Virus record (IMG/VR): IMGVR_UViG_3300035698_008060
Location: 1-22,252 of that record
Reading direction: 5' to 3' (one strand)
Length of the DNA: 22,252 nt
Source: a virus
Positions 73 through 19,710 of the stretch are shown here, piece by piece; position 1 is the stretch's first letter, and every line of letters starts with the position of its first letter. A model generated the notes under the pieces. The model was not told the DNA's origin. It saw nothing but the letters and a program-made list of their open reading frames with translations, and searched no databases. The translations under genes were made by a program, and so were the position numbers.

Positions 73-1683
73 ATGAGCATACACGCTTGGCTAATTGAGA
101 ATCAGATCAAAAATGAGAAGGGGCAGTTGATTGAGTTTGACAATCACCCCTTTCTTTTTGATATATATGCTGACCAAGCAAAAGACATGTGCGTGATGAA
201 GGCTGCTCAAGTAGGACTTACGACCTTGGAGTTCTTGAAGAGCTTTTATGATGCCAAACATTTCAAGATGGACATGATCTATACATTGCCTACAGATGGG
301 GATGTGAAGGTGATGGTCGGGGGAAAGTTCAACCGTATCATTGCAATGAATCAATGCATGCTTGATGATGTATCAGATAAGGATAGCGTAGAGCAGAAAC
401 AAATAGGGGACTCGATGATTTACTTTCGTGGCACGTTCACCAAGAAGGCCGCAATGATGATCCCGGCAGATAGATTGATGCATGATGAGAAAGATACCTC
501 AAAGCTCGATGTGATTGCTGACTTCCAAGCCCGACTCCAACATTCAGAGTTCAAGCAAACCCATACATATAGCCATCCCTCACTTCCTGAGACTGGTGTG
601 CACAATGATTGGTTAAAGAGTGACCAAAAGCATTGGTTTATCAGATGCCGTGCGTGTGACAAGTGGCAGTTCATGGCATGGAACACAGAAAACCCCGACA
701 AGATGTCCGTGTGCTTTGAACGTAAGATCTTCCAATGCAAATCGTGCAAGGCAGAGATCACTGACGTTATGCGCAAGACAGGGCAATGGGTAGCAAAATA
801 TAAAGACAAAAAGATTAGCGGCTATTGGGTCCCATTACTAATAGCTCCGTGGGTATCAGCCGCCGAATTGATTGAGAAGTTCCAAGACAAAGACACTACA
901 GAAGAGTTTTGGTTGACCAAGGTACTCGGGATCCCATATGCCAACGCAGCATCCAAGCTATTGCGTCAGAGCTTCAATCAGAACCTTACAGGCAAACGGT
1001 GGAACCCTGACAAGAATGAGCGCATCGTGATGGGTGTTGATACGGGATTGCGCATAGATTATGTACTTGGTAACAAAAAAGGATTGTTCTATCATGGGGA
1101 CACAAAGGACTATGGAGAACTTGATGCCCTCATGTTGCGATGGCCAAAGATGATCGTCGTAATTGATCAAGGCGGCGACCTTATCGGATCAAGGCAGTTT
1201 TACCAACGGTGGCCTGGCCGTGTATACCTCTGTACGCTCACAGGAGACCGTACAACGAAGGAACTCGTGAAATGGGGTACTAAGGACGAAGAAGGCGCTT
1301 GTACGGCTGACAGAAACAGAATGATCCAATTACATGTCGATGAATACCGTAAGAAAAGAATCCCCGTACATGGAGATGAGGGAATGTGGCATGAATATTG
1401 GAGCGATTGGAATAATCTATCCAAGACCAAGATACTAGATCCGGTCACTAATGCAATCAAAGGGTACAAGTGGGTGCGCAATGGACGCGACCATAGAGCG
1501 CTTGCCTCAGTGTTTTGGAGAATTGGCATGAGTAGGTTCTCAGATCTCGGTACTATCATTCAAGCTGATGAGCCAACGAAACCAGAGAGTTACTTCATCC
1601 AACCCGATGATACTGCAGACTTCGATCCTATTAAAATGTTCGACCTCATGGAACATGAGAACGAGGAGGACTGGCGGCTATGA
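73..1683 (+). CDS. terL: Phage terminase large subunit (packaging ATPase/nuclease, GpA-like)
   Basis: Motor that pumps phage DNA into the prohead through the portal and cuts the concatemer. The 536-aa length is normal for the family. Residues 44-51 (AAQVGLTT) form a variant Walker A loop, and the hydrophobic stretch ending in D138-E139 is a plausible Walker B. C192-x2-C195 and C222-x2-C225 form a zinc ribbon between the ATPase and nuclease parts, as in GpA-like terminases. D323 (in GVDTG), D365 (in VVIDQGG) and D473 (in NGRDHRA) are spaced like the acidic triad of an RNase H-fold nuclease. It lies directly upstream of the portal gene. This is the only start in the window without T before ATG, and it has no Shine-Dalgarno. 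No small terminase is recognised; it may lie outside the window. Family call is firm, subfamily less so. Confidence 0.93.
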   Translation: MSIHAWLIENQIKNEKGQLIEFDNHPFLFDIYADQAKDMCVMKAAQVGLTTLEFLKSFYDAKHFKMDMIYTLPTDGDVKVMVGGKFNRIIAMNQCMLDDVSDKDSVEQKQIGDSMIYFRGTFTKKAAMMIPADRLMHDEKDTSKLDVIADFQARLQHSEFKQTHTYSHPSLPETGVHNDWLKSDQKHWFIRCRACDKWQFMAWNTENPDKMSVCFERKIFQCKSCKAEITDVMRKTGQWVAKYKDKKISGYWVPLLIAPWVSAAELIEKFQDKDTTEEFWLTKVLGIPYANAASKLLRQSFNQNLTGKRWNPDKNERIVMGVDTGLRIDYVLGNKKGLFYHGDTKDYGELDALMLRWPKMIVVIDQGGDLIGSRQFYQRWPGRVYLCTLTGDRTTKELVKWGTKDEEGACTADRNRMIQLHVDEYRKKRIPVHGDEGMWHEYWSDWNNLSKTKILDPVTNAIKGYKWVRNGRDHRALASVFWRIGMSRFSDLGTIIQADEPTKPESYFIQPDDTADFDPIKMFDLMEHENEEDWRL

Positions 1684-1957: not shown

Positions 1958-3775
1958 ATGAGAGATACTGGAATTGCAGCATACAAATCACTCGGCTCTG
2001 ACGTCAATAAGGAGAAAGGGAATGGCGAAGACATGCGTGACACAGAGGTTGGCGTAGTATCCGATAAATTGCCGGAGCTTACTTTGGATATGAAGGACGA
2101 GGACATGATTGTCCTCGCAAACAAGTGGACAAAAGAGTGGGAAGACTCCCCAATCAAAGCAACTTGGCTACAGAATACTAATGAAAACGTAGAATATTGG
2201 AAGGGAAACCAATACGACTCAGCAAGTGGAGACAAGAAAAGGCCAATGGTCGACAATCTCATCTTTGAAGCCCTTGAGACATTCTTGCCACAAGCTACAC
2301 GAAGAAACCCTGAGCCAATTGTATCCATTCTCAGCACAGAAGACCCAAGCGATGCCAATCAAAAGTATGTAGAACGCCTCAAAAACACCCTTGGAGACCT
2401 TGCAGACACCAATAAAATGCGTCTCAAGCTCAAAAAAGTCACTCGTCACTGGTGTTTGTACCACCTTGGTGTGGGTAAAATCGGCTGGGATTTGGACAAC
2501 GACATGCCAACAGCGCGCATCATCCGTCCAAAAAATATGATCCTCGACCCCACAGCAACAATTGATGAAGACGGATACACAGGGGAGCGCCTTGGTGAAT
2601 ACCGAAAAAAACAAGCATCAATCCTTTTGGGGATTATAGGAAAAGAAAAGGGAACAGCTAAAGCACGCAAAGCCATCAAAGATCTTGTTGGTGACGATCT
2701 TGCCACTGAGATACAGTTTATCGAATGGTGGACTGCACAGTACCTATTCTGGCAGCTCGGCTCAACTGTCTTATACAAGAAGAAAAATCCACATTGGAAT
2801 TACGCTACAGAAAAGACAGAAATGGATGAGCTTGGTGTAGAAACACCAGGAGAAGAAGAGGCAGGCGTCAATCATTTCAAGGTGCCAAAGATGCCGTACA
2901 TCTTCCTGTCAGTGTTCAACTTGGGCGAGCAGCCTATGGATGATACTGGTCTCATTAGCCAAAACCTTTCAAATCAAGACCTCATTAATAAAAGAAACAA
3001 GCAGATTGATAGAAACACGGACTCAATGAACGGTGGAATGGTCGTTTCAGCGGAGCGAGCAGGAGTAACGAAGGAGCAAGCAGCAAGCATTTCAAGAGCA
3101 TTGCGCAAAGGTGGCACAGTGGTAGTACCGAAGGGTGCCCCACGAGACGCCATAGATCGCTTCCCAGCGCAGGGATTGCCCGCAGACGTCTACAACAACC
3201 TTAGTGACACAAGAGAGCGCACACGGGACATTTTCGGCATCAAGGGACTATCTCAGGCTGGCATATCTAGTGAAAAGACAGTGCGCGGTAAGATTGTTGG
3301 CAAAAACCTTGATACGGATAGGATTGGTGGAGGTGTAACAGAATACATCGAGCAATTTGCAGATGATCTATACAATTGGTGGGTACAAATGTTGTACGTT
3401 TACGACAGTGACTTCCAGTTTTCACCCGGAGTACAGCCACCACAGCTCATTGTCTCAGTTAAAGAAGGCTCATTATTACCAAAAGACAGCACAACAATCG
3501 CCAATCAAGCCATTGAACTTGCAGGAGCAGGCAAGATGTCAACGATTGATCTATACAAGAGACTTGAATATTCCAACCCAGAAGAACTTGCAGCCAATGC
3601 ATGGCTAGAACTCAATGCGCCACAAGTGCTATTCAAAGACAACCCACTAGTACAAGAAGCGCTCGGGATGCAGCAACAAGCCGCTATGGCAGAGCAAGCA
3701 GGTATTCCACAGGTTCCACAAGAAGGCACAGAGGCTAGTGTTCTAAATCAGGCACCAATTCAATTGTATGGCTGA
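1958..3775 (+). CDS. Portal protein (P22-type)
   Basis: Dodecameric ring at the capsid vertex through which DNA enters and leaves; docking site for terminase and the tail. The 605-aa product resembles P22-like portals of podoviruses. The N-terminal half carries WKGNQYD, RRNPEPIV and RPKNMILDP, followed by a helical stem/wing region and a Gln/Ala-rich C-terminus. It lies between terminase and scaffold, the usual place. The start at 1958 fits the T-ATG rule of this genome. An alternative start at 2033 would remove 25 residues; an AAGGAG at 2009-2014 is 18 bases from it, too far to be a normal ribosome site. The chosen start lies two bases after a terminator poly-U, which is odd. Confidence 0.9.
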   Translation: MRDTGIAAYKSLGSDVNKEKGNGEDMRDTEVGVVSDKLPELTLDMKDEDMIVLANKWTKEWEDSPIKATWLQNTNENVEYWKGNQYDSASGDKKRPMVDNLIFEALETFLPQATRRNPEPIVSILSTEDPSDANQKYVERLKNTLGDLADTNKMRLKLKKVTRHWCLYHLGVGKIGWDLDNDMPTARIIRPKNMILDPTATIDEDGYTGERLGEYRKKQASILLGIIGKEKGTAKARKAIKDLVGDDLATEIQFIEWWTAQYLFWQLGSTVLYKKKNPHWNYATEKTEMDELGVETPGEEEAGVNHFKVPKMPYIFLSVFNLGEQPMDDTGLISQNLSNQDLINKRNKQIDRNTDSMNGGMVVSAERAGVTKEQAASISRALRKGGTVVVPKGAPRDAIDRFPAQGLPADVYNNLSDTRERTRDIFGIKGLSQAGISSEKTVRGKIVGKNLDTDRIGGGVTEYIEQFADDLYNWWVQMLYVYDSDFQFSPGVQPPQLIVSVKEGSLLPKDSTTIANQAIELAGAGKMSTIDLYKRLEYSNPEELAANAWLELNAPQVLFKDNPLVQEALGMQQQAAMAEQAGIPQVPQEGTEASVLNQAPIQLYG

Positions 3776-4032
3776 TGAAGTATTGAAAAGAGATGTAAAT
3801 CATCTTGTATGAAAGGGATAGTTTATTGGTAGTATCAGATCCGTTCGTGCCAAGAAGAATCATATGGTCTGCTGATGATCTAAAAGATCCAGTAGAAAAA
3901 GAACATAAAAGCCATATTAAAATAAAATCATTAACAGATATTTGGTTCAGAGCAGAAGGCAATGGACAGACCTCTGGCGTTTCTGTATGGATGGATTACT
4001 ACCTAGTTGATGCAGATGCAGATGGAGCATAG
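3768..4032 (+). pseudogene. Small gene split by one extra base (or 3805-4032 as a separate TTG-start gene)
   Basis: An ATG at 3768 overlaps the portal end and has the usual T before it. It encodes MADEVLKRDVNHLV and then stops at TGA (3810-3812). In the +1 frame, an ORF of about 75 residues (3805-4032) starts at best with TTG and encodes ERDSLLVV...WFRAEGNG...DADADGA, which looks like real protein. Removing one base near 3801-3812 would join them into an 87-aa protein. The KRDxN sequence resembles the RDxNxVP motif that opens three structural proteins later in the window, so the gene may be a virion protein. Alternatives: sequencing insertion, true mutation, programmed +1 shift, or two genes with a TTG start. 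Confidence 0.5.
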
Positions 4033-4049
4033 GAATTTAAGAAATGTAT

Positions 4050-4160
4050 ATGGCAAAATCAAAAAGTCACAGAGCCGTCTTGGAAGATATAAAACCTGAA
4101 CTTGCTAGAGAGTTCAAGAAGAAAATCAAAGAGATGGCAAAGAAAAAGAAAGGGGCCTAG
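4050..4160 (+). CDS. 36-aa lysine-rich small protein
   Basis: Short ORF starting MAKSKSHRAVLEDIKPELA and ending in a run of lysines (MAKKKKGA). It is strongly basic and lacks membrane segments or cysteines, so nucleic-acid or capsid-interior binding is conceivable, but I do not recognise it. The start at 4050 has T before ATG; an in-frame ATG two codons upstream (4044) is the alternative. The stop codon lies in the loop of a small GC-rich hairpin (4152-4166) just before the tRNA gene. Support comes from start context, tight packing and codon sense only. Confidence 0.5.
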   Translation: MAKSKSHRAVLEDIKPELAREFKKKIKEMAKKKKGA

Positions 4161-4166
4161 TGCCCC
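4152..4166 (+). other. Small GC-rich hairpin before the tRNA
   Basis: GGGGC (4152-4156) and GCCCC (4162-4166) pair across a five-base loop holding the stop codon of the 36-aa ORF. There is no T run, so it is not a full terminator. It ends four bases before the tRNA and could help RNA processing. The same five-base stem sequence forms the base of the terminator at 1919-1948. Confidence 0.4.
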
Positions 4167-4170
4167 GTAT

Positions 4171-4244
4171 TGCGCGGTGGAGCAGCTTGGCAGCTCGTCT
4201 GACTCATAATCAGAAGATCAGCGGTTCAAATCCGTTCTGCGCAA
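4171..4244 (+). tRNA. tRNA(CAU), initiator-type tRNA-fMet variant
   Basis: Full cloverleaf. Acceptor TGCGCGG/CTGCGCA (one G.U), D stem GAGC/GCTC, anticodon stem TCTGA/TCAGA around loop CTCATAA (anticodon CAT), T arm with TTCAAAT loop, discriminator A; CCA is not encoded (CGA follows). It matches bacterial initiator tRNA-fMet, as I remember the E. coli sequence, at most positions and with the same length. It has the initiator hallmark A11:U24 and a weak 1:72 pair (U-A here). Of the three G:C pairs at 29-31/39-41 typical of initiators only the middle one (30:40) is kept; the others are U29-A41 and A31-U39. Elongator Met or lysidine-modified Ile decoding is the alternative. Confidence 0.93.
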
Positions 4245-4289
4245 CGAGTAGTGCTAAACAAGGGAATCACTAACCCTTAAATATACAGT

Positions 4290-5066
4290 ATGGACAAGAC
4301 ACAGATGCAGATTCCACAAGAAGGCGACAATGCTTTCCCAGAATCACCAGAGGAGACAAACTCTGCTCCCTCATCAGGAGAAGAAGACACAGCCGATCAG
4401 ACTCCCTCACCTGAGGAGGATAACGAACAGGTGGAAAAACAAAATGACGGCAAAGAGTCTGTACCATTTAATGAACACCCACGGTGGAAAAAACGTGAAA
4501 CCGATTGGGATGACCGCTTCAATGAACAAGAGAAGCGTCATGTTGATGAAATAGAACAGCTACGCAAAGAAATCACCGGGGTAAAAAAAGAGGAAGCCCC
4601 CGCTGTTGACATCCCATCATGGTTCGGTGGCGATGAAAAGCAATGGCATGAGTTCCAAGACTGGAACAAAACGCTCAAGCAGCAGGCGAAAAGTGAAGCA
4701 CTCGATGAGATAAACTCACAGAGCGCGTCTGAACAAAAAGCTATTGATGATGCAACCGAATACTTCAATGAAGAAGTCGCAGACATCGAGACAGATAAGG
4801 AAATCAACCCAGAAGGTCTCAAGGTCGACAAGAACAAATTGTTGAAATTTGCACTTGACAACGAGCTTGTGGATACCAAAGGGCGATGGAATTATCGCAT
4901 AGCGTTCCAACTCATGCAGGTCAAAAGCAACATGGCCAAGACCAGCAAGTTGGACAAAAAGAAACAAATCGCCAACGCAACAACCTCAGAAAAAAAAGCC
5001 GAGAACAAGCCAAAAGACTTCATGTCCTCAGAGGATTATGACAATCCACAATCGAGGCCATGGTAA
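4290..5066 (+). CDS. Scaffolding protein (capsid assembly)
   Basis: A 258-aa, highly charged, hydrophilic protein directly before the major capsid gene, the standard place for a phage scaffold. Residues 1-60 are acidic and low-complexity (Glu/Pro/Ser/Gln), probably disordered. A predicted coiled coil follows around residues 75-100 (EQEKRHVDEIEQLRKEI), then a helical middle. The C-terminal region is lysine-rich, which in scaffolds is typically the coat-binding end. No cysteines or membrane segments. The start has T before ATG and no Shine-Dalgarno. Family sequence identity is low among scaffolds, so the call rests on composition, size and position; an internal capsid protein is the alternative. 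Confidence 0.8.
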   Translation: MDKTQMQIPQEGDNAFPESPEETNSAPSSGEEDTADQTPSPEEDNEQVEKQNDGKESVPFNEHPRWKKRETDWDDRFNEQEKRHVDEIEQLRKEITGVKKEEAPAVDIPSWFGGDEKQWHEFQDWNKTLKQQAKSEALDEINSQSASEQKAIDDATEYFNEEVADIETDKEINPEGLKVDKNKLLKFALDNELVDTKGRWNYRIAFQLMQVKSNMAKTSKLDKKKQIANATTSEKKAENKPKDFMSSEDYDNPQSRPW

Positions 5067-5086
5067 TTATTTACTAAAACATTTGT

Positions 5087-6106
5087 ATGGCCGAATTATA
5101 CGGACAAAGAATACAAACCACGGTTCAAACAAGCTACATGCCGTTTGTAGTCGACACCGTTCTTGACAGCAATGTTCTTTTCCAACGCATGGTGCGTGGG
5201 GCAAAGAACTGGAGCGGACGAACAAAACGTGTACCCGTCAAAGTATCTAAGAATACAACAGGTACATCATTCAGAGGATTCGATACTTTCTCAGTAGCAG
5301 CAACTGACAACCGTCAGTTCATGGAATTCACACCATCTTTCTACCAAATCACTTGTGCGCTTCCTGGTGACGAGCTTTCAGTAGCCGACACAGACGACAA
5401 GATTCTTGATTTGATGAAACTTACCATCCAATCAGATACAGAAGATATGGCCGATGACCTCGGGACAATCTTCTACGGTGATGGTACAGGTAACAGCTCA
5501 AAAGATCCTCTTGGTCTTGCAGCTCTTGTCGATGATGGAACAAGCGTGGCAAACATTGGTGGACTTTCACGTTCAACATACTCTTCACTTGCAGGAACAG
5601 TGACAGCATCAGGTGGTGCTTTGACACTTGCAGCAATTGATACTTTGTACGCAGCAGTGAAATCAGGAAACCAAACTCCAACATTCTTGCCTACAACAGA
5701 GGCTATCTTTAACTTCTACGGACAACTCTTGCGTCCACAAGAACGTATTGTGAAGCAAGCAGGTCTTATGAAGGGCCTCAAGAGTGGTACTGGATTTGAA
5801 GGACTTGAATACTCAGGAAAAGCAGTGATCTCAGATGAGAAATGTACATCAGGTGTACTCTTCGCCCTTAACGAACGATACCTTGATTGGTTAGCTCTTC
5901 CATACTACGGAGCAAAACCTGTTTCATACAAATCACAGATCAAAGGAAACGATTACTCAGCGCCAATGGGCCTCGGGTTCTCATGGGGAGACTGGATCAA
6001 ACCAGCCAACTCAGGATCAGTTGTTGGACACATCTACTTCGGTGGACAATTCATCACTACAAATCCAAAACGTCAAGGTAAACTTACAGGCATCACATCC
6101 ATCTAA
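5087..6106 (+). CDS. Major capsid protein (HK97 fold)
   Basis: The 339-aa protein that builds the icosahedral shell. Features typical of HK97-fold coat proteins: an N-arm with QTSYMPFVVDTVLDSN, a charged segment resembling the extended loop (WSGRTKRVPVKVSKN), a long mixed P/A domain including DTEDMADDLGTIFYGDG, and a C-terminal strand region ending near NPKRQGKLTG. Size and position after the scaffold agree. Its codons are regular, as expected for a highly expressed gene. No fused protease or scaffold domain is present. The start is T-ATG, 20 bases after the scaffold stop, with no Shine-Dalgarno. Confidence 0.92.
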   Translation: MAELYGQRIQTTVQTSYMPFVVDTVLDSNVLFQRMVRGAKNWSGRTKRVPVKVSKNTTGTSFRGFDTFSVAATDNRQFMEFTPSFYQITCALPGDELSVADTDDKILDLMKLTIQSDTEDMADDLGTIFYGDGTGNSSKDPLGLAALVDDGTSVANIGGLSRSTYSSLAGTVTASGGALTLAAIDTLYAAVKSGNQTPTFLPTTEAIFNFYGQLLRPQERIVKQAGLMKGLKSGTGFEGLEYSGKAVISDEKCTSGVLFALNERYLDWLALPYYGAKPVSYKSQIKGNDYSAPMGLGFSWGDWIKPANSGSVVGHIYFGGQFITTNPKRQGKLTGITSI

Positions 6107-6130
6107 TTCACCTCGTAAAACATATTCTAT

Positions 6131-6754
6131 ATGTTAGAAGCAAAAAACTACGATCCTGCGTTGATGCAAGGTGCATCACTAGGCGCACAAGAGGATCTGT
6201 ACGATCTCATCGACGTCAACGGTAACGAAGTTATCGAAGTAGACGGTATTGCTAGTGCTGTGAATTACGTGCGTGTTGCCAACTCTATTGCAGGCGTTGG
6301 GCCAACTGTGTCCGCTCAAGGTGACGACACAAATATTGACTACAACATGGCGGCAAAAGGTGCTGGGCTTGTAACGACAGGCTCTGCGCTCTTACAAAGA
6401 CATAGTACTGCCGCAATCAATGCTACAGCAACCGCTACGCCTGCTCAGGTCGCAACTGGTTATATCACATCAACTTCTGCTGCTGCTACAACTATTACAC
6501 TTCCAACTGGTACATTACTTGGTTTAGCTCTCGGAGCAGTCCAAGGTACAATCCACGAACTGTATATTGACAACACAGCAGGAGCAAACACTGTGACAAT
6601 GGCAGTGGCAGTCAACGGTATCATTTCTGACGCCGCTACTACTACTGCAGCCTCATTCGGTCAATTGACCGTTGCTGCAGGTGTTACAGGACAGGGACGA
6701 TTCACGTTGATGTTCTCAAGTGCAACAGCATACACATTCACAAGAACAGCCTAA
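6131..6754 (+). CDS. Probable capsid-associated or decoration protein
   Basis: A 207-aa protein directly after the major capsid gene. The first third carries NGNEVIEVDGIASAVNYV, a type of sequence common in virion surface proteins. The rest is rich in Ala, Thr and Gly with alternating hydrophobic residues and ends in a beta-strand-like AYTFTRTA, suggesting a beta-sandwich. There is no signal peptide or membrane segment. I infer a head decoration or minor structural role from position and composition; a fibre-type beta domain is the alternative. No family name is recalled. Confidence 0.65.
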   Translation: MLEAKNYDPALMQGASLGAQEDLYDLIDVNGNEVIEVDGIASAVNYVRVANSIAGVGPTVSAQGDDTNIDYNMAAKGAGLVTTGSALLQRHSTAAINATATATPAQVATGYITSTSAAATTITLPTGTLLGLALGAVQGTIHELYIDNTAGANTVTMAVAVNGIISDAATTTAASFGQLTVAAGVTGQGRFTLMFSSATAYTFTRTA

Positions 6755-6779
6755 CCAAATTATTCAGTAAATCAAATTT

Positions 6780-7505
6780 ATGTCCCAATTGATTGGTACA
6801 GGAGTACAGGTTGTGGCACAGGGCCTTTTTGATGAAAGTTCATCAGCTCTTCACAACCTCGGAGAACTTGTGCACTCAAGTGATGGTCGCGCTTTCCGTT
6901 ATTGTAAAGCTGGTGCAGTCGCACTAGTAGCAGGAAACTTGCAGCAAGCATCAGCACAAGACACAGGCGATCACAACCTTGCTATTGCAGCAGTAGCCGC
7001 AGGAGCAAGCGAAATCGTAACAACAGGAACAGTAACAGTAGTAGAAAACCAATACGCTGGCGGATTCGTCATCGTAGCAGACGATGCAGGAGAAGGGCAC
7101 GTTTACAGCATCAGCGGACACGCAGCAGCTACAGCAGCAGTTGTAACAATAAAGTTGGCTGATAAAGTCAAAGTTGCACTTACTACAAGTACAACTATTG
7201 ACCTTGTAAAGAATCCGTTTGATTCTGTTATCATCAACCCAACAACTGTATCATCAGCACCTGCCGGTGTTGCGGTAATGGCTATGACAGCCTCATACTT
7301 CGGATGGCTCCAAGTAAAAGGAGTGGCATCAGTATTGTGTGACGACGCGATCACCGTTGGTACTGACGTTGTAGCATCAGGAACAGTGGCCGGAGCTGTA
7401 GAAATTACAGCAGACGGAGCAGCAGAAATCAAATCAGTGGTGGGTACTGCATTGATTGCAGCAACTACAGCAGAATACGGAGCAATCAATCTAAACTTGC
7501 TCTAA
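6780..7505 (+). CDS. Probable head decoration protein
   Basis: A 241-aa protein with Ala/Val/Thr-rich beta-strand sequence throughout. The N-terminal part (QVVAQGLFDESS, LGELVHSSDGRAFRY) resembles capsid-associated proteins found beside major capsid genes in many environmental phages. It ends in EYGAINLNLL and is followed by a strong hairpin at 7514-7543 that closes the capsid gene block. Start is T-ATG without Shine-Dalgarno. The structural role is inferred from gene order and composition; I cannot tell decoration protein from minor capsid protein. Confidence 0.65.
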   Translation: MSQLIGTGVQVVAQGLFDESSSALHNLGELVHSSDGRAFRYCKAGAVALVAGNLQQASAQDTGDHNLAIAAVAAGASEIVTTGTVTVVENQYAGGFVIVADDAGEGHVYSISGHAAATAAVVTIKLADKVKVALTTSTTIDLVKNPFDSVIINPTTVSSAPAGVAVMAMTASYFGWLQVKGVASVLCDDAITVGTDVVASGTVAGAVEITADGAAEIKSVVGTALIAATTAEYGAINLNLL

Positions 7506-7513
7506 ACGAAACA

Positions 7514-7543
7514 GAGTGCCCTACGCAAAAGTGTAGGGCACTC
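7514..7543 (+). terminator. Thirteen-pair hairpin after the capsid block (no U tract)
   Basis: GAGTGCCCTAC (7514-7524) and its exact complement (7533-7543), extended by G.U and C-G pairs, enclose an AAAA loop (7527-7530). It lies just after the 241-aa ORF. The bases after it (ATTGTGCGC) are not T-rich, so termination is uncertain. It may instead protect the 3' end of the abundant capsid message or mark a processing site. Confidence 0.6.
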
Positions 7544-7588
7544 ATTGTGCGCTAATATCGGGAACTCGCACGCCCGTCAAATTACTTT

Positions 7589-8101
7589 ATGCGATCAGCA
7601 ATATTCACAAACTTTACAGATCACGATTTTACCGGCCATTGGAATGGACGAGCAAGAACAGTACCGGCAGGAGAAAAACTATCAATGCCTGACTACCTTG
7701 CAAGACATTACGCAAAACACCTTACAAATAGAGAGCTTTTGCGTAGAGATAAAAAAGGCAATTTCATTCATAAGAATGGAGACCGATTTACCTCTCCAAA
7801 AAAAGAAGAAGATGTATCACAGTTCATGGAACTCTTCAATCAGGCTTACACAGAAGAACTTGAAGAAGCCGTTGGTGAAGATGAAGATGACATTGATGCA
7901 TTGATTTCATCAGTAAACACAAACAAGAAGGCCAAAGCAAAAGGCAAAAAGAAAGAATGTTGCGGATCTCTAAGTACACGCCACAAGGCTGCGTGCAAAG
8001 GTGTTCCAGCAAAAACGCCCGACACAGAAGACGATGAAGAGCGAGATGATCGTGGCACAGACGACGACGAAGATGACTTTGAAAATAAACCAATAGCATA
8101 G
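7589..8101 (+). CDS. Phage structural-cassette protein with acidic C-terminus
   Basis: A 170-aa protein in two parts. Residues 1-55 form a compact domain with DFTGHWNGRARTVPAGEKL and HYAKHLTNREL, a pattern I recall from conserved hypothetical proteins next to capsid genes. Residues 55-170 are charged and probably disordered: a Lys-rich stretch (KKAKAKGKKKECC), four cysteines in total between about residues 120 and 140, and a long Asp/Glu tail. The cysteines may bind metal, although the spacing is loose. Function unknown; a head accessory or connector role is inferred from position only. The start is T-ATG, 46 bases after the hairpin. Confidence 0.75.
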   Translation: MRSAIFTNFTDHDFTGHWNGRARTVPAGEKLSMPDYLARHYAKHLTNRELLRRDKKGNFIHKNGDRFTSPKKEEDVSQFMELFNQAYTEELEEAVGEDEDDIDALISSVNTNKKAKAKGKKKECCGSLSTRHKAACKGVPAKTPDTEDDEERDDRGTDDDEDDFENKPIA

Positions 8102-8102
8102 T

Positions 8103-8573
8103 ATGTCAATTACCAGTAGTACATTTTCAAGGGATGCAAACTATGTCCCTATCACAACACTTGGGCTTATAACTTCTAAAACCATGGTATTTGATGGTGC
8201 AACGGTGAATGATCCTGGAGATTTTAACGGTACCGGAAACCCCGCTACACTTTTTGTGGTCACAGGTACGGTATCAGTTAATGTTGTGGGATTTTGTACT
8301 ACTGATTTGGCGGGTGCGGCAGCGACTATTGAATTGGGCGTGGCTTCATCCACTGCAGCACTTGGGGATCAACAGACAGCAACAGACGTGAATCAGCACA
8401 TGTCTTTCCATGATGCAGTACTTGCCATTGGCGGCAATGTGGATGGTCACTCTCATGTTGTTGATGAAAACGTCATCCAAACAGTCGGCACAGCAAATAT
8501 CACATCCGGTGCGCTTGTGTACTATTGTTGGTGGGTTCCACTAAGCACAGACGGTAATGTAGTAGCAGCATAA
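8103..8573 (+). CDS. Small virion protein with RDANYVP N-terminal motif
   Basis: A 156-aa, Thr/Val/Gly-rich beta protein. Residues 10-19 (RDANYVPITT) match the motif that opens the proteins at 9284 and 9558, suggesting a shared docking segment. The remainder (SVNVVGFCTTDLAGAAATIELGV and similar) reads as a beta-sandwich of the kind found in tail appendages and decoration proteins. The start follows the previous stop by one base (TAG-T-ATG). I infer a virion-surface role; the exact function is unknown. Confidence 0.7.
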   Translation: MSITSSTFSRDANYVPITTLGLITSKTMVFDGATVNDPGDFNGTGNPATLFVVTGTVSVNVVGFCTTDLAGAAATIELGVASSTAALGDQQTATDVNQHMSFHDAVLAIGGNVDGHSHVVDENVIQTVGTANITSGALVYYCWWVPLSTDGNVVAA

Positions 8574-8574
8574 T

Positions 8575-9282
8575 ATGAGACTTCTTGATCCACAAAAAGT
8601 TTCATCAGACAAAAAAGAGGTGGACGTTGCAAGGGAAAAACGAGTGGTGGCAATGAGCAGAGCCGAAACGGCCCTCGTTGAACGCTTGAACCTTGCAAAG
8701 AAACAACACGAGGATGGTATCAGTTTGATGGATGAAGAACACACGGAGCACAAAACTACGCTCCGAGAAGAAATCGAAGGACTTAAAAGCGAAGTCATAG
8801 GTTTAGAACAACGAAAAAAGGACGCATTGATGCCAATCAAAAAGCGCGTTAGAGAAGCCCGAGAGTTCGAGTTGATAAATGATATGTTTTCTCTATTTGT
8901 CGAGCTGTGGGGCGAAGCAGTGGCCTCTCACGATGATTCAGTGGAAGATATGGCTATGGATTTACAGGACAAAGCCATGGACTTGCACGAAAGACAGGAA
9001 GACGTAGAGAAAAAAGAAGGGGAAGCAAAGAAGACGTCCGAAGAAGTCGCGGCGTCTACAAAGAGACTTACTGGCCAATGGCTCGAGTATCACAAGCGTG
9101 TGGATGCTATCAATAAAGACTTCTCACAGCGAGAACTTGAACACAGAGCAGAAGGCAAGAGACTCGCATCATTGAAATCAGCACTTGACTTGAAAGAAAA
9201 GGAACAAAAGGACGAACGCAGAGCTTTGCAAGATGGATACCAAACACTTGCCAAGGCACAAAAAGAAATAATGGGAAACTAA
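8575..9282 (+). CDS. Coiled-coil protein of the structural cassette
   Basis: A 235-aa, highly charged, almost wholly helical protein with heptad-like patterns over residues 15-100 and 120-230 and a short less-charged centre (FELINDMFSLFVELWGEAV, about residues 98-116). No cysteines, signal peptide or membrane helix. The start is one base after the preceding stop (TAA-T-ATG), and the next gene follows in the same way. It sits among fibre-like proteins, so a trimeric fibre shaft or an assembly chaperone is possible. I recognise no family. Confidence 0.75.
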   Translation: MRLLDPQKVSSDKKEVDVAREKRVVAMSRAETALVERLNLAKKQHEDGISLMDEEHTEHKTTLREEIEGLKSEVIGLEQRKKDALMPIKKRVREAREFELINDMFSLFVELWGEAVASHDDSVEDMAMDLQDKAMDLHERQEDVEKKEGEAKKTSEEVAASTKRLTGQWLEYHKRVDAINKDFSQRELEHRAEGKRLASLKSALDLKEKEQKDERRALQDGYQTLAKAQKEIMGN

Positions 9283-9283
9283 T

Positions 9284-9556
9284 ATGGCACAAGCACCAAG
9301 AGACGACAATTATGTACCGGTTGCCCTTGGTGTGCTCGACTCTGACGGTGAAACCCCCATGCCACTAGAGGCAGACCCTACTACCCACTTTCTAGTAATG
9401 GAGGATAACAACAACGGGGCTGATAATTCAGGCAATAATGCTTATAGGGATCAAAACAGTGTGACCACACTTCTCGCAGTTTCAGAGAGCGATGGTTTAA
9501 CACCTGTACCACTGTATGTCGATTCAAATGGCATGTTACTCGTAGACTCAAATTAA
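9284..9556 (+). CDS. 90-aa protein made of two RDxN-VP modules
   Basis: Consists of two diverged copies of one module, residues 6-38 and 55-87, each running RDxN(Y/S)V...G(V/A)xxSDGxTPxPL(E/Y)xD...LV, joined by an Asn/Gly-rich linker. A single copy opens the next protein (9558). Junctions on both sides are stop-T-ATG. It probably makes a small virion component or adaptor that binds the same partner as the fibre protein; this is inferred from the shared module. No catalytic or metal-binding residues are seen. Confidence 0.75.
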   Translation: MAQAPRDDNYVPVALGVLDSDGETPMPLEADPTTHFLVMEDNNNGADNSGNNAYRDQNSVTTLLAVSESDGLTPVPLYVDSNGMLLVDSN

Positions 9557-9557
9557 T

Positions 9558-10922
9558 ATGGAAGCAAAACGTGACGACAACAATATACCAACACTCTTGG
9601 CGGTATCAAACGCAGACGGCATTACACCGGTGACTCTTTATGCAGACCCAACGACGCATAGGCTTCTTGTTGGTATGGCTGATATTGCTGTCTCAGACCT
9701 TGCAAATGGAACAGATGGAGAACTTATCACATGGGATGCAAACGGAGCCCCAACAACAGTAGCCGTTGGAACAGCGGGCCAAGTGCTAAAAAGTAATGGA
9801 GCAGGAGCAGAGCCAACATTCCAAAACGCCGAAGGTGGTGGGGATGTGTCAAAAGTAGGTACTCCGGTCAATAGCCAAGTGGGTGTATGGACAGGAGACG
9901 GAACAATTGAAGGTGCCGCAAGTCTCACATATGATGGCTCAAACTTCCAACTCACAGGTGATATTGGTGCTACTGGCGCGCGCATCACCAAAGGCTGGTT
10001 TACTGATTTACTAGTAACAAACGCTATTGCCGGTTCTGTCACAGGAAACGCGGGCACAGTTTCGACGATTACAGGTCTCGCACCTGACACAGCGACAACA
10101 CAAGCAACGCAGGTGAACATCACAACGATGGCCAACCTCACATCAATTCAAGGTTTAACGGTCACACTTGCCGATGCTGGCGCAGATGCTCTACTTGGAT
10201 GGGATGATACAGCAAGCGCATATGAAAACCTCACACAAGCAGAAGTGCTTGCCGTTATAGGTTCTGCCGGTCTTACAGCCCAGGGGGTTGTGGAATTGGC
10301 GACCATCGCGGAAACAAACACAGGGACAGATGCAACAAGAGCCGTTACACCAGATGGACTAGATGGATGGACTGGATCAACGCAGGTTGTCACACTTGGT
10401 ACGATTGCAACAGGGAATGTTGACGCGGCAGTGTCAGCATCAAGTGTCACAGTAGCAGGAAAGATCGAAGTCGCGACAGCGGCTGAAACCACAACAGGAA
10501 CGGACGCTACTAGAGCGGTATCACCTGACGGACTTGCTGGATCAGACTTTGGCAAAAGGGTTATTGTCATCCAAGCATTTGAATCTGACGCAGCGGTCAC
10601 AACGGGTAACGGAACAATCGGAGTACCTATCACAGCAGAGCTCAACGGTTACAATATCGTTGGGGCGCAGGCAAATGTTTATGTAAAAGGTATTACAGGA
10701 GCCACGGATATTCAAATCCGCAGACAGAGGGGTGCGGCAAATGCGGATGTCCTCTCAACTAAGGTCACTATTGGTGATGAATATTTCGCTGCAGATGGTG
10801 CAGTGGATGCTTCAAACGATGACCTCGCCACTGGCGACATGGTGTTTGTGGATGTAGATGCTATCCATAGCGGTACAGCACCAAACGGGCTATCAGTCGC
10901 AATAACTGCTCAACTCCCATAA
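9558..10922 (+). CDS. Tail fibre-like protein
   Basis: A 454-aa protein. Residues 5-38 form an RDDNNIP module shared with the preceding gene, probably the virion attachment end. Residues 51-90 carry the TAGQVLKSNGAG pattern and about 150-172 the GSVTGNAGTVST pattern, both frequent in phage fibres. Residues 243-268 and 301-326 are two copies of the short fibre repeat (ELATIAET...TDATRAVTPDGL). The last 120 residues look like a separate beta domain, perhaps the tip. The function, contacting the host surface, follows from these repeats. Neighbouring genes are joined by stop-T-ATG. Confidence 0.82.
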   Translation: MEAKRDDNNIPTLLAVSNADGITPVTLYADPTTHRLLVGMADIAVSDLANGTDGELITWDANGAPTTVAVGTAGQVLKSNGAGAEPTFQNAEGGGDVSKVGTPVNSQVGVWTGDGTIEGAASLTYDGSNFQLTGDIGATGARITKGWFTDLLVTNAIAGSVTGNAGTVSTITGLAPDTATTQATQVNITTMANLTSIQGLTVTLADAGADALLGWDDTASAYENLTQAEVLAVIGSAGLTAQGVVELATIAETNTGTDATRAVTPDGLDGWTGSTQVVTLGTIATGNVDAAVSASSVTVAGKIEVATAAETTTGTDATRAVSPDGLAGSDFGKRVIVIQAFESDAAVTTGNGTIGVPITAELNGYNIVGAQANVYVKGITGATDIQIRRQRGAANADVLSTKVTIGDEYFAADGAVDASNDDLATGDMVFVDVDAIHSGTAPNGLSVAITAQLP

Positions 10923-10923
10923 T

Positions 10924-12069
10924 ATGAAGAAACGGCTCGCAGGTAAAAATTCAAGAGAACGGGCAAAAATCAACTCTGAGGCGATTGCCAAGATTGACAT
11001 GCGGGGCGAGTTTACAAAAGGCGCTCTCCGTATTGAGATTGTAGAAACCCCCGTGGCCATTAGCGTGAATGACGTTAATGGTGTTGAAATGTACGTCAGA
11101 GCTTGGAAAAACGACAAACAGCTCGGTTTCGGAGCGATCGGTGATGTAGAAATCGAACGCATCCGCGTTTTCAACCCACCAGTAAGAACACCTGAAGGAA
11201 ACGGAACACGTACTCTAAAAAACAAGCGCTTCTACAAAGGTGCAGGTGCATACGAAGAAAAACTTATATTTCGGGACAATTTCATTAATGATCCTCTCAA
11301 AGCGATTCAAGCAGATCTCCACCACACTATCGGACTTATAGGGAAAGAAAACACAAAGATCACTATTGGTAAAAGAGGTAGGACAACATCAACTTTCTAC
11401 CCAGATGCCAGCCCAGAATCAACATCAGTTGATGGTGCTGTAAGACACAGCACAGGAGCTGGTGGCTCTGGTGTGGCTTGGTCTACTCTTGTAGCAGCCG
11501 CAGGAACAAGCGCAACAGACAGTGCAGCAGAAGATGCCGTCGTAGGTATTGAAGCAGACTCTACAACGGACAAGTTCCGTATTTTGTACAGATCCATTCG
11601 TTTGTTTGATACCTCAGCACTTCCTGATACAGACGTTATCAGTTCAGCGGTATACTCCGACAGCACACAAAGCAAAACAGGTACAGATGTATTCGGCATT
11701 GCTTTCAATGTGTTTTCCTCCAACCCAGCGTCAAATACAGCTTTGGTAGCAGGAGACTTTGACAGTCTTGGCACAACACCATTTGCAACTGAGATTGCAT
11801 TTGCTGGAATGTCTGGTTCAGAAGGAACATACAATGACTTTGTTCTAAATTCCGCTGGTATCGCAGCCATTGTAAAAGATGGTATTACCAAGTTTGGTGT
11901 TCGTGAGAGTAACTTCGATGCTCCTGACTCAGCTCCTACATGGTCAAACGGAGCTTTTGCGGCCGTTACATTCAACAATGCAGAAGAAACAAGCACAACG
12001 AAAGATCCAAAACTTGTTGTCACACATGCAGCAGGTGTCACATTTACACCTAAAATATTAATGTACTAA
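10924..12069 (+). CDS. Probable receptor-binding or appendage protein
   Basis: A 381-aa protein in two parts. Residues 1-130 are basic and charged (KKRLAGKNSRERAK, then strands around VAISVNDVNGVEMYVRAW). The C-terminal region has a beta-sandwich-type pattern I recall from modules attached to phage surface proteins: YRSIRLFDTSALPDTDVISS, NVFSSNPASNTALVAGDFD, LNSAGIAAI and a terminal KLVVTHA strand. That resembles carbohydrate-binding-like folds with a jelly-roll layout. Adjacent to the fibre gene and one base from its neighbours. Glycan binding is inferred; no catalytic site is visible. Confidence 0.7.
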   Translation: MKKRLAGKNSRERAKINSEAIAKIDMRGEFTKGALRIEIVETPVAISVNDVNGVEMYVRAWKNDKQLGFGAIGDVEIERIRVFNPPVRTPEGNGTRTLKNKRFYKGAGAYEEKLIFRDNFINDPLKAIQADLHHTIGLIGKENTKITIGKRGRTTSTFYPDASPESTSVDGAVRHSTGAGGSGVAWSTLVAAAGTSATDSAAEDAVVGIEADSTTDKFRILYRSIRLFDTSALPDTDVISSAVYSDSTQSKTGTDVFGIAFNVFSSNPASNTALVAGDFDSLGTTPFATEIAFAGMSGSEGTYNDFVLNSAGIAAIVKDGITKFGVRESNFDAPDSAPTWSNGAFAAVTFNNAEETSTTKDPKLVVTHAAGVTFTPKILMY

Positions 12070-12070
12070 T

Positions 12071-12976
12071 ATGAAAAGCAGAACAGGACTCCGCAATCTA
12101 TACGGCAAACTGACTCTCGATTCAGGAGCCGACAATCTCGCACTTGGTGATGAGCTTATTATGGATAGTATTAGAGATATTGTTGCATCACCTCAAGATT
12201 GGGATTTCCTCGAAGATACCAAAACAAGCGTGACTGTAGCCGACCAGGCTGCATACAAGACGCCTGCACGTTTCAGAAAGATGGACTCTGTGAAGGTCAC
12301 AATCGGATCGACAAACTGGTACCCGACCGAAGTAAATGACCGCAAACGATGGGATTATCTCAACATGACGGCTTTCACGGCAGACATCCCGGAATTTTTC
12401 TATATTTATGCTGGCGAAGTGCATTTGTGGCCAACACCAGCAACTGCAGGCAACGTAATCACATTTGATTACTCTCTACAGGTACAGGACTTGAATATTG
12501 CGGATTACGCAACGGGAACAGTTGATATAATCACAAATGCAGCAAAAGGTATAACAGGGGACAGCACAGTATGGACAGCCCCAATGGCTGGTAGGTACAT
12601 CCGTGTGGCACGTGGAGACGTTGCTGCATCAAGCGGCGATCACGTCTGGTATGAGATCGACAGCGTAGCCTCAAACACAGTGCTCACACTCGTCAAAAAC
12701 TACGAGGGCACATCACTCACCACAGGGGCGGCAGCATCATACATTATCGGTCAAATGCCTATACTACCAGAGGATTACCATAACCTTCCGGTATACAACG
12801 CAGCCCGCATGTACTGGCTCACACGAGACCAAGTGAAAGCTGACAGGTACAAGGTGCTATTTGATGAAGGATTCAAGAAATTGGAGAGAGACCATGCCAA
12901 CAAAACATCGGACATGGAAGTCGATAGTCGAGACGAATTGATAGCCAATCCAAACCATTTCATTACTCTTACATAA
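12071..12976 (+). CDS. Head-tail adaptor (P22 gp4-like tail accessory)
   Basis: A 301-aa protein. The opening helices (DELIMDSIRDIVASPQDWDFLE) followed by VTVADQAAYKTPARFRKMDSVKV, then FYIYAGEVHLWPTPA, match the layout of short adaptor proteins that cap the portal in podoviruses. The C-terminal helix region (ILPEDYHNLPVYNAARMYW...ADRYKVLFDEGFKKLE) fits that family as well. About residues 150-235 look like an inserted beta module (TGDSTVWTAP...GRYIRVARGD). It would join the portal to the tail hub encoded next. Family assignment is by recalled pattern and gene order. Confidence 0.75.
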   Translation: MKSRTGLRNLYGKLTLDSGADNLALGDELIMDSIRDIVASPQDWDFLEDTKTSVTVADQAAYKTPARFRKMDSVKVTIGSTNWYPTEVNDRKRWDYLNMTAFTADIPEFFYIYAGEVHLWPTPATAGNVITFDYSLQVQDLNIADYATGTVDIITNAAKGITGDSTVWTAPMAGRYIRVARGDVAASSGDHVWYEIDSVASNTVLTLVKNYEGTSLTTGAAASYIIGQMPILPEDYHNLPVYNAARMYWLTRDQVKADRYKVLFDEGFKKLERDHANKTSDMEVDSRDELIANPNHFITLT

Positions 12977-12978
12977 GT

Positions 12979-14769
12979 ATGGCAAAAAAGATCATCACAA
13001 TTGGGAGCATCATTGGGGGTATTTCACCACTCGCGAATCTATCACAGGATGACCAATTTATGATGTCCATCGGTATTGACACTGACAAGCCTATTAGTAC
13101 TTCTGGGAAAGTAAAAACAGGGGGTATGATCTCCCCTTCTTTATACACAAAGTTTTCTGGGGCTGCATTGAACTCTGCCCCAATGTGGATTTTGACATCA
13201 CCAAAAAACACCAACGTGTACGTTTATTGTGCAAACGGTGAGCTAATTTCGTACTCAGCAGCTTTGTTTGATGAAACGGGCATTGATACACCAGCAGGAG
13301 GTGACGGATCAGGGGCGGCTTATTATAATAATTACTACTATCTCGGAACAAACGATTCCTCACTTGCCTATGATAACCAGACTGGAAACTTTGCCGTCGG
13401 ACTTACAGTAACAGGGGGCAGCTCAGGAGCAACAGGAGTCATCAAAGCGGATGATGACAATGGAGCAACAGGTGTTTTGTCACTCTCAGGTGTTACAGGT
13501 ACCTTCCAAAATAACGAAACCATCACAGATTCAGCAACAGGAAGCGCGACAACAAACGGAGTGATTGGCTCAGACATTTCACGTTATGGCCCGCTTGATG
13601 GTAACCCAGCAATGGAACACGGCGTGTGGACTGGCGCAACATTTGGAAATAAAACAGCACTTAACAATTTTTCAACAACAAACGCAGGTGGAGCCGTTTA
13701 CCCAAACAGACCAATGCATGTACATACAGGAAATAATAGGTTGTACTTTGGTGATTTTGTTGATGGCCAAGGTGTGATCCATGTCATCGAAACCAAGAAA
13801 GGTGCGTCTATTGAAGGAGAGATTGATAACAACTCCGCATATAACGTGCTTGACCTTCCATTCGGCTTTAGACCAACGGACATCGAAAGCTACGGGGATT
13901 TGCTTGTTGTTTCGGCATCACAAACCACGGACTCCATTATCAGACAAGGGCCATCAGCACTATTCTTCTGGGATACTATCTCAGGCCAATACGAAACACC
14001 AGTCACAGTGAAAGAATCTATCATCGGGGCATTGCTTAATGTCAATGGTGAAATTGTGGTATTCAGCGGAAACCAAAGCGGGAGCACTACCATCGGAAAA
14101 TATGCTGGCGGTTTTAGTGTGAGAAACATTGCCTTTCTTGAAGAAGGATATGCGCCATTCCCTGGTGCAGTGGATTACTACGGAGACAGGATTGTTTGGG
14201 GAGGACAAACAACATATCCTGAAAGCTCTGCCTCTGTGTTCTCGCTTGGCTTCAAAAACCCACAATTGCCAGGAGAAGCTTTACACAACATTGCCAAAAG
14301 CACAGCAGCAAGCACAACGCCTACAATCTGTGCCCTTAAATACGTGCAGCAAGCGTCTGGGTCAACCCCGCGTCTTGTTCTCGGGTGGATCTCAGGAATA
14401 ACATTTGGACTTGATACGCTTGGAGGCGTACCAGACGGCCTCTTCTTGAGCAAAATGTTCAACGTAGGGCAACCGTTCAAAATAACCAAAGTTCGCCTAC
14501 CACTTGATAGCGCCGTTGTATCAGGAGACACGATTATTCCGACCATAAGTGTAGACAATGAAAGTAAGGATTTTGCACTCAAAACGATCAACTTTGCCAA
14601 CTTTCCTGGTATACTAAACGTAATATATAAAACACCAGAGGCTACAAACAACACAACGGGTAGTGTTGGAGGCCAGCAAAACTTTCTGTTAAAACTTGAT
14701 TTTGGTGGTACAGAGTACAAATCTGTGATGCTCCCAATTCAAATAGAAATTGAGACACTTGACGACTAG
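12979..14769 (+). CDS. Tail hub/nozzle protein (P22 gp10 or T7 gp12-like)
   Basis: The 596-aa protein directly after the adaptor gene, where podoviruses encode the nozzle. Repeated beta-strand blocks with aromatic-Gly signatures (NNYYYLGTND, NRLYFGDFVDG, DRIVWGGQTTYP, PRLVLGWIS) suggest a beta-propeller core. About residues 135-195 hold an inserted module (VTGGSSGATGVI, SGVTGTFQNNETITD) that I recall as a mobile insertion in phage structural proteins. The C-terminal 130 residues read as a beta-sandwich (FKITKVRLPLDS ... VMLPIQIEIETL). Role: continues the DNA channel below the portal and carries appendages. The family call is moderate. Confidence 0.75.
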   Translation: MAKKIITIGSIIGGISPLANLSQDDQFMMSIGIDTDKPISTSGKVKTGGMISPSLYTKFSGAALNSAPMWILTSPKNTNVYVYCANGELISYSAALFDETGIDTPAGGDGSGAAYYNNYYYLGTNDSSLAYDNQTGNFAVGLTVTGGSSGATGVIKADDDNGATGVLSLSGVTGTFQNNETITDSATGSATTNGVIGSDISRYGPLDGNPAMEHGVWTGATFGNKTALNNFSTTNAGGAVYPNRPMHVHTGNNRLYFGDFVDGQGVIHVIETKKGASIEGEIDNNSAYNVLDLPFGFRPTDIESYGDLLVVSASQTTDSIIRQGPSALFFWDTISGQYETPVTVKESIIGALLNVNGEIVVFSGNQSGSTTIGKYAGGFSVRNIAFLEEGYAPFPGAVDYYGDRIVWGGQTTYPESSASVFSLGFKNPQLPGEALHNIAKSTAASTTPTICALKYVQQASGSTPRLVLGWISGITFGLDTLGGVPDGLFLSKMFNVGQPFKITKVRLPLDSAVVSGDTIIPTISVDNESKDFALKTINFANFPGILNVIYKTPEATNNTTGSVGGQQNFLLKLDFGGTEYKSVMLPIQIEIETLDD

Positions 14770-14771
14770 AT

Positions 14772-15266
14772 ATGGCAAAAGATGATTTCAAACAAGCTAC
14801 ATTACCGAAACCTAGCTCACCCCGTGAGCAGAAATTCTTTGAACAGAAATTCTTTGAACAGAAAACTTTTGACTATCGTTCATTGAATAACAAGCGGATA
14901 TATGAGAGCCATACGATCATATCAACGGCAGCGGCAACAGCAGCAAACTATGATGTATTCTGGATCGCGCCATTCCCTTGTATAGTGGTAGGAGTCACTG
15001 AGGAGCACAGGGTGGCTGGAACACATGGCAGTGCGGTGAGTCTCAATATAGAGAAGCTCACAGGCACACAAGCGCTTGGGGCAGGGGTAGACGTACTTGA
15101 AAGTGTCATCGACTTGAAAGGGACAGCAAAAACACCCGTCGAGGGAACGCTCACAAAAACACTAGCAAACAAACAACTGGCGAAAGGAGATCGATTGGCT
15201 ATGAAAGACGCTGGAACATTAACATCACTTGCAAATGTAACAGTAATAATTGAAATTAAATTCTAA
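14772..15266 (+). CDS. Small tail or surface structural protein
   Basis: A 164-aa protein. Residues 17-34 carry three tandem copies of EQKFF-type pentapeptides (E-x-K-x-F), encoded by a 15-base DNA repeat. Residues 48-164 form a compact beta domain (FWIAPFPCIVVGVTEEH ... TLTSLANVTVIIEIKF) of a type I recall from small proteins in marine phage tail and head regions. The start is two bases after the preceding stop. Function unknown; its position between the tail hub and ejection proteins suggests an appendage or decoration role. Confidence 0.7.
   Translation: MAKDDFKQATLPKPSSPREQKFFEQKFFEQKTFDYRSLNNKRIYESHTIISTAAATAANYDVFWIAPFPCIVVGVTEEHRVAGTHGSAVSLNIEKLTGTQALGAGVDVLESVIDLKGTAKTPVEGTLTKTLANKQLAKGDRLAMKDAGTLTSLANVTVIIEIKF
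14826..14870 (+). repeat. Three tandem copies of a 15-base repeat
   Basis: Copies at 14826-14840, 14841-14855 and 14856-14870, based on GAACAGAAATTCTTT. The first two differ by one base; the third is more diverged. The repeat length keeps the frame, adding EQKFF-like units to the N-terminus of the 164-aa protein, so slippage could change copy number without breaking the gene. Confidence 0.9.
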
Positions 15267-15269
15267 TAT

Positions 15270-17381: not shown

Positions 17382-17382
17382 T

Positions 17383-19268: not shown

Positions 19269-19272
19269 TAAT

Positions 19273-19710
19273 ATGAAACCACCAATTATGGAATATGTCA
19301 AATCAATCTTGGCCCTACCAACGCTCAAAATTTCTTTTGGCTGGATTGGTATGTTTTTTTTCGCAGCTATTGGTGACAATTATCTTGCATACGAGACTTT
19401 GTTCATTCTCATCACAGTAGACACAATCAGCGGATTCGCAAAAGGCTTGAGATCCAAAAGTCTCAGCTCTCGAAGAATGTCGCGATCTGTCACAAAGATG
19501 CTCATGTACTACACACTGGTATTATCAGCCCACCAACTCACACGATACGCAGGGTACTTGCAATGGTTTGAGGACTTCATCATCATTTTCTTGCTCACTA
19601 CGGAGCTTATATCGATTATAGAGAATGCGCATGAACTTGGTATACCAATCCCGCACTGGGTAATTGAAAAATTGCAGTCTTACTCAAGAAAACCAAAGTA
19701 TGACAAATAA
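19273..19710 (+). CDS. Phage holin (PF05105-type, phi29/TcdE-like family)
   Basis: A 145-aa membrane protein. Hydrophobic segments lie near residues 18-34, 40-56, 76-92 and 100-116. Motifs DTISGFAKGLRSKSLSSRRM and ELISIIENAHELGIPIP match the bacteriophage holin family with the D-x-x-(S/T)G and S-I-x-EN-x-x-x-LG-x-x-x-P signatures. It forms inner-membrane lesions at the end of infection to release the endolysin. The endolysin gene overlaps it by 11 bases. An unusual TATAAT lies just before the start, but any transcript start from it would fall inside the gene. Confidence 0.9.
   Translation: MKPPIMEYVKSILALPTLKISFGWIGMFFFAAIGDNYLAYETLFILITVDTISGFAKGLRSKSLSSRRMSRSVTKMLMYYTLVLSAHQLTRYAGYLQWFEDFIIIFLLTTELISIIENAHELGIPIPHWVIEKLQSYSRKPKYDK

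Follow-up and report, generated by a model that had tools for sequence, protein, structure and literature searches.

Introduction

The three G:C pairs 29:41, 30:40 and 31:39 of the anticodon stem are a hallmark of the initiator tRNA, with a high degree of conservation reported across every domain of life (PMC7949028). An E. coli initiator whose stem was changed at these places to UA/CG/AU, the '3GC mutant', is inactive in initiation (PMC10486304). The same arm is exposed to nucleases: VapC toxins cut tRNA-fMet between A38 and C39 (PMC4105405), and an alphaproteobacterial VapC also targets the initiator tRNA (PMC8522696). Phage tRNAs have been proposed to escape VapC-type anticodon nucleases, while phages are said generally to avoid encoding tRNA-fMet (both PMC10264068).

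Here we analyse a phage-borne tRNA that is very probably of the initiator type and retains only the middle one of the three pairs. The window, by which we mean the whole stretch of viral DNA under study, comprises the 22,252 bases of IMG/VR record IMGVR_UViG_3300035698_008060. Compared with bacterial tRNA-fMet (E. coli metY/metZWV and the alphaproteobacterial A29:U41 type), its tRNA has in common the body, A11:U24, a weak 1:72, the pairs G2:C71, C3:G70 and G4:C69, A37, the T loop UUCAAAU and G30:C40. It differs in having U:A at 29:41, A:U at 31:39 and no encoded CCA, and in lying within the structural operon of a phage. The outer pairs are identical to those of the laboratory 3GC mutant, whereas the middle G30:C40, absent from that inactive mutant, is kept (UA/GC/AU). 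This middle pair is reported to be the most important element for selection in the P site. Like the mycobacteriophage tRNAs of PMC10264068, the window tRNA is changed near a known nuclease cut; those, however, are elongators altered in the anticodon loop, whereas here the change affects the anticodon stem of an initiator. The changed stem, not the presence of an initiator-type tRNA in a phage, is the new point.

The tRNA and its surroundings

ARAGORN finds a single tRNA in the window, a tRNA-Met(CAU) at 4171-4245, and Rfam matches RF00005 at 4171-4244 with 60.7 bits (E 4e-11); the tRNA is real. Minimum-free-energy folding of the region recovers the cloverleaf with a z-score of -1.39, a value that counts neither for nor against a tRNA. 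All stem pairs are formed. They are U:A, G:C, C:G, G:C, C:G, G:U and G:C from 1:72 to 7:66 in the acceptor stem (1:72, 2:71, 3:70, 4:69, 5:68, 6:67, 7:66), G:C, A:U, G:C and C:G in the D stem (10:25, 11:24, 12:23, 13:22), and U:A, C:G, U:A, G:C and A:U in the anticodon stem (27:43, 28:42, 29:41, 30:40, 31:39). The anticodon loop reads CUCAUAA and the discriminator is A73. These parsed pairs agree with the initial annotation in the bases and sequence blocks that it described, among them A11:U24, the weak 1:72 and A37, and in its statement that 30:40 alone of the three G:C pairs survives beside U-A at 29:41 and A-U at 31:39.

Table 1. Features of the window discussed in the text.
Feature	Position	Strand	Basis
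Terminase large subunit	73..1683	+	phrog_675, E 9e-83; PF05876
Portal / head-tail adaptor-like protein	1958..3775	+	phrog_332, E 7e-5, weak
38-codon ORF, stop codon 9 nt before the tRNA	4044..4161	+	sequence and translation
Initiator-type tRNA(CAU), tRNA positions 1-73, no encoded CCA	4171..4244	+	ARAGORN; Rfam 60.7 bits; profile classification
D arm with A11:U24 (G10-A11-G12-C13 / G22-C23-U24-C25)	4180..4196	+	parsed structure
Anticodon arm UCUGA-CUCAUAA-UCAGA; G30:C40 kept, 29:41 U:A, 31:39 A:U	4198..4214	+	parsed structure
258-aa gene in scaffold position, ATG 45 nt past the tRNA	4290..5066	+	ORF list; position before capsid gene
Major head protein (capsid)	5087..6106	+	phrog_9953, E 2.3e-43

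The window also encodes tail genes and a holin. Its portal-like gene precedes the tRNA, and the scaffold-position gene, for which no PHROG match was found, follows it. A promoter scan of the interval between these two genes found none, a result consistent with, although not proof of, transcription as part of the operon. When the window was compared in full with GenBank phages by megablast, no match was returned; a TerL search of viral contigs yielded a single relative, and no integrase was present among the genes searched in this fragment. The major capsid protein has a 31 percent match in a TM7 phage, which raised the possibility of a host among the Patescibacteria. This is not supported: the TM7 phage has Shine-Dalgarno sites in use (21/31 genes), and the stretch of it that was read carries no tRNA.

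Classification among CAU tRNAs

The initial annotation had called for a classification into fMet, elongator Met and Ile2. A position-weight classifier was built on 64 reference CAU tRNAs (18 distinct initiators, 21 elongator tRNA-Met and 25 tRNA-Ile2), drawn from Pseudomonadota only, whichever phylum the host of the window phage belongs to; in leave-one-out trials 64/64 were assigned correctly. Measured against these references, which may not represent the host's phylum, the window tRNA scored +54.9 bits as fMet, -8.6 as elongator Met and -11.0 as Ile2, and when the anticodon arm was left out the Pseudomonadota profiles still gave 49.3, -2.2 and -11.0 bits, respectively. Core identity to cellular initiators averaged 76 percent (best 80 percent), against some 53-54 percent for the other two classes.

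The determinants point the same way. Position 1:72 lacks a strong Watson-Crick pair, being a weak U1:A72 where the E. coli initiator has a C1xA72 mismatch; A11:U24 is present, and so is the formylation set G2:C71, C3:G70 and G4:C69. The three G:C pairs are reduced to 30:40, yet the full set is not strictly required, because cellular alphaproteobacterial initiators also lack G29:C41. The initiator-type identity put forward from the first reading is thus upheld by a distance of more than 60 bits from either other class and by a complete set of formylation determinants, and on its sequence the window tRNA can be assigned to the initiator type with high confidence.

Anticodon stems of phage and cellular initiators

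A change at 29:41 alone is not unusual, since alphaproteobacterial initiators have A29:U41 as a rule; what is rare is a change at 31:39. We searched for the initiator D arm combined with a G:C pair at 30:40 and changes at both 29:41 and 31:39. This pattern occurred in 57 stretches of viral contigs as compared with only 2 of 84,980 species genomes. The earlier description of an 'altered anticodon stem' is correct, and it carries more weight than could be judged from the letters of the window, because the alteration is nearly exclusive to phages. Of the two exceptions, one (L253) is in a phage-like region, next to helicase, primase and antiterminator genes of phage type, and is identical in sequence to a viral match (L225); the other (L254) comes from a 4.1-kb MAG contig, where a gene of phage type bears an RF-1 domain. 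That peptide-release-type gene, at 550-1071 of L254, lies less than 1 kb from the changed-stem tRNA.

Another 32 viral stretches had 31:39 changed with a G:C pair kept at 29:41, and just 17 had a changed 30:40. As a control, requiring this D arm but leaving the stem free gave matches in 265 of 398 Pseudomonadota genomes, where all matches listed had G30 and G31 except for the centre genome's own phage-like copy; the changed-31:39 pattern occurred in 2 of the 398. The contrast between phages and cells is to be read as qualitative, though large, for three reasons: the patterns require an E. coli-like D arm, by which some phyla are missed or poorly covered; initiator genes linked to rRNA can be absent from draft genomes; and the viral collection is an unmatched denominator. 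The 17 viral initiator bodies with a changed middle pair (L255-L271) mostly have C:G there.

The 88 distinct changed phage tRNAs have Watson-Crick pairs at 29:41 in 88 cases, at 30:40 in 87 and at 31:39 in 79, with G-U in the other 9. A strong 1:72 pair occurs in just three of them, and most retain G2:C71 and C3:G70. Since the changed pairs stay complementary, these genes are not decaying. The commonest new 31:39 pair is C:G (53/88 tRNAs, found in 25 of 41 clusters), which keeps the strength of the stem and yet alters the base 3' of the VapC cut. The exact U:A/G:C/A:U stem was found in the window tRNA only. Among 106 places of changed phage initiators, a radius of 3 kb holds no second tRNA at 59, and 4 are near a locus end, which argues that these genes do not mainly belong to tRNA arrays or attachment sites. 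The recurrence of rewritten stems in many unrelated phages, set against their near absence from bacteria, suggests that this starter tRNA is functional.

Initiator-type tRNAs in named phages

Both the initiator body and a changed 31:39 are shared with the window tRNA by those of Aeromonas phages Aeh1 and phiAS5, Agrobacterium phage Atu_ph07, Mycobacterium phage Phabba, Streptomyces phage Wakanda, Microbacterium phage Pumpernickel, Sinorhizobium phage phiM12, Brevundimonas phage Bajun, Synechococcus phage S-CRM01 and Gordonia phage GMA2. The pair is likewise changed in Rhizobium phage RHph_TM3_3_3, Mycobacterium phage Baudelaire, Synechococcus phage S-PM2 and Vibrio phages nt-1 and D69. It is unchanged in CcrSC, CcrColossus, CcrRogue, phiKX1, cr60_1, Pan5, CN1A, D479, Kaldavass, CBB and phiLM21, the proportion of changed to unchanged being biased by the changed-stem query with which this sample was drawn. 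The named-phage initiators mostly have C31:G39, in contrast to A31:U39 in the window tRNA.

The view expressed in the initial annotation that an initiator copy is unusual in a phage can therefore be granted only in part, as many named phages have one (Aeh1, phiAS5, Atu_ph07, S-CRM01, Wakanda, CcrSC, Phabba and phiM12 among them). Most are annotated simply as 'tRNA-Met', whereas the CcrSC record already says tRNA-fMet. The data suggest that many phages do the opposite of generally avoiding tRNA-fMet, with changes in the stem rather than in the loop. In GenBank, Atu_ph07, phiAS5, nt-1 and CN1A (L345, L346, L356 and L351) have no tRNA annotated at the matched initiator-type place.

Proposed function and its alternatives

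Taken as a whole, the explanation that we prefer, and consider somewhat better than an even choice, is that the gene encodes a working phage initiator, made from the late operon, whose outer stem pairs have been rewritten, possibly for nuclease escape. The tRNA would be transcribed with the late structural genes and excised from the operon transcript; the host would add the CCA end, and host MetRS would charge the tRNA. Host Fmt would be expected to formylate it, given the weak 1:72, G2:C71, C3:G70, G4:C69 and A11:U24, and IF2 together with the retained G30:C40 would admit it to the P site. Judging from these sequence features, expression, formylation and use in initiation are likely. Because U1:A72 is a pair and not the E. 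coli mismatch, some activity in elongation is also possible.

Why the stem was changed is a separate matter, on which nuclease escape is the reason that we favour tentatively. The outer pairs 29:41 and 31:39 have been rewritten by complementary changes, which would allow the phage copy to keep initiating while host nucleases cut the normal initiator. The change does lie at or beside the nuclease site: VapC toxins cut between A38 and C39, and base 39 of the window tRNA is U instead of C. Contrary to escape, many phage initiator copies retain G31:C39 (CcrSC, CBB, Kaldavass, cr60_1 and D479). If the proposal is right, initiation may be a step over which phages and tRNA-cutting toxins compete, despite the reported avoidance of this tRNA by phages. 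With complementary changes around a sole surviving middle pair, the phage set also serves as a natural test of which pairs are needed in the P site.

The strongest competitor is relaxed constraint, whereby the less important outer pairs of a spare phage initiator simply drifted. The same pairs indeed vary widely in other phage initiators, and the middle pair has changed least (17 stretches as against 57 and 32). However, drift away from G:C should produce mostly A:U and G:U, not the dominant C31:G39; mismatches are almost absent; and cells with multiple initiator genes do not display the same drift. We regard this explanation as unlikely.

Less likely still, the tRNA could be an initiator turned elongator tRNA-Met, in which the loss of two G:C pairs, along with a paired (U:A) position 1:72, would allow reading of internal AUG codons or of both kinds. 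The elongator profile (-8.6 bits, more than 60 below the initiator score), the D arm with its A11:U24 and the weak U1:A72 disagree with that class, and G30:C40 and the formylation set are retained. Moreover, a separate second CAU tRNA accompanies the initiator type in CcrColossus, CcrSC, CcrRogue, Bajun and Wakanda, and most other CAU tRNAs among the capsid relatives described below have 1:72 mismatches.

A lysidine tRNA-Ile2 was considered since the window stretch GACUCAUAAUC is identical in many bacterial Ile2 tRNAs and positions 30-40 match most Ile2 references. TilS and IleRS recognise C4:G69, U12:A23 and C29:G41. The window tRNA has G4:C69, G12:C23 and U29:A41 instead, its phage relatives mostly have a C31:G39 that is not Ile2-like, and the profile score of -11.0 bits led us to reject the reading drawn from GACUCAUAAUC; we hold Ile2 to be very improbable. 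Hardly credible, finally, is the idea that the tRNA is a fragment of a host initiator gene, captured with an attachment site and without any function in the phage. Host initiator genes (of the alphaproteobacterial AGG/CCU type) do stand at the ends of many IMG/VR contigs, but here a full gene lies between structural genes, with no integrase among those searched; its core shares no more than 80 percent identity with any cellular initiator in the comparison, and just 4/106 changed phage initiator places are near a locus end.

Relatives with a shared capsid gene and their start sites

Eighty viral contigs have the capsid gene in common. Their tRNAs are few, and 7 of the 10 distinct ones found by ARAGORN, the window tRNA included, are CAU. 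All seven have the initiator-type acceptor end, without a strong 1:72 pair and with G2:C71 and C3:G70 kept; G31:C39 is absent from six. The different genome places of these tRNAs imply repeated gain or movement. A11:U24 is present in five. Its substitution in related phages had been named beforehand as evidence against initiator identity, and two of the six relatives (L040 and L045) do show it, yet both retain the mismatched 1:72 of an initiator. These two, at L040 3242-3316 and L045 3845-3917, are initiator/elongator hybrids in which an A-A mismatch at 1:72 is combined with C11:G24 and U11:A24, respectively.

None of the late genes listed for the window (1958-20413) has a clear Shine-Dalgarno site, and such sites are scarce in the whole clade, at 8 percent compared with 41-43 percent in other phage loci. 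Starts in the clade have A at -3 and -6. Many gene junctions in the window take the form stop-N-ATG, for instance TAATATG, and among the ATG genes with a product of 100 aa or more, 17 of 18 have U at -1 (p 8e-8 versus the local U content). U(-1) could pair with A37, as Esposito reportedly described in 2003 (a study cited in PMC9841429). A link between U(-1) and the tRNA was rejected as a general rule, since 0-11 percent of genes have U(-1) in L023, L035 and L036, all three with initiator-like tRNAs, and since no tRNA was found in several contigs where U(-1) is frequent. More speculatively, and with little confidence, one may imagine that rewritten-stem initiators form a class of their own, spread over many phage lineages, as a private supply for when the host initiator is destroyed, and that this clade without Shine-Dalgarno sites might favour U(-1)AUG starts through four-base pairing with A37. 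Start-site context differs sharply inside this one phage clade: across the capsid relatives, T at -1 ranges from 0 to 100 percent (L005, L064, L019, L050 and L002 versus L023, L035 and L052).
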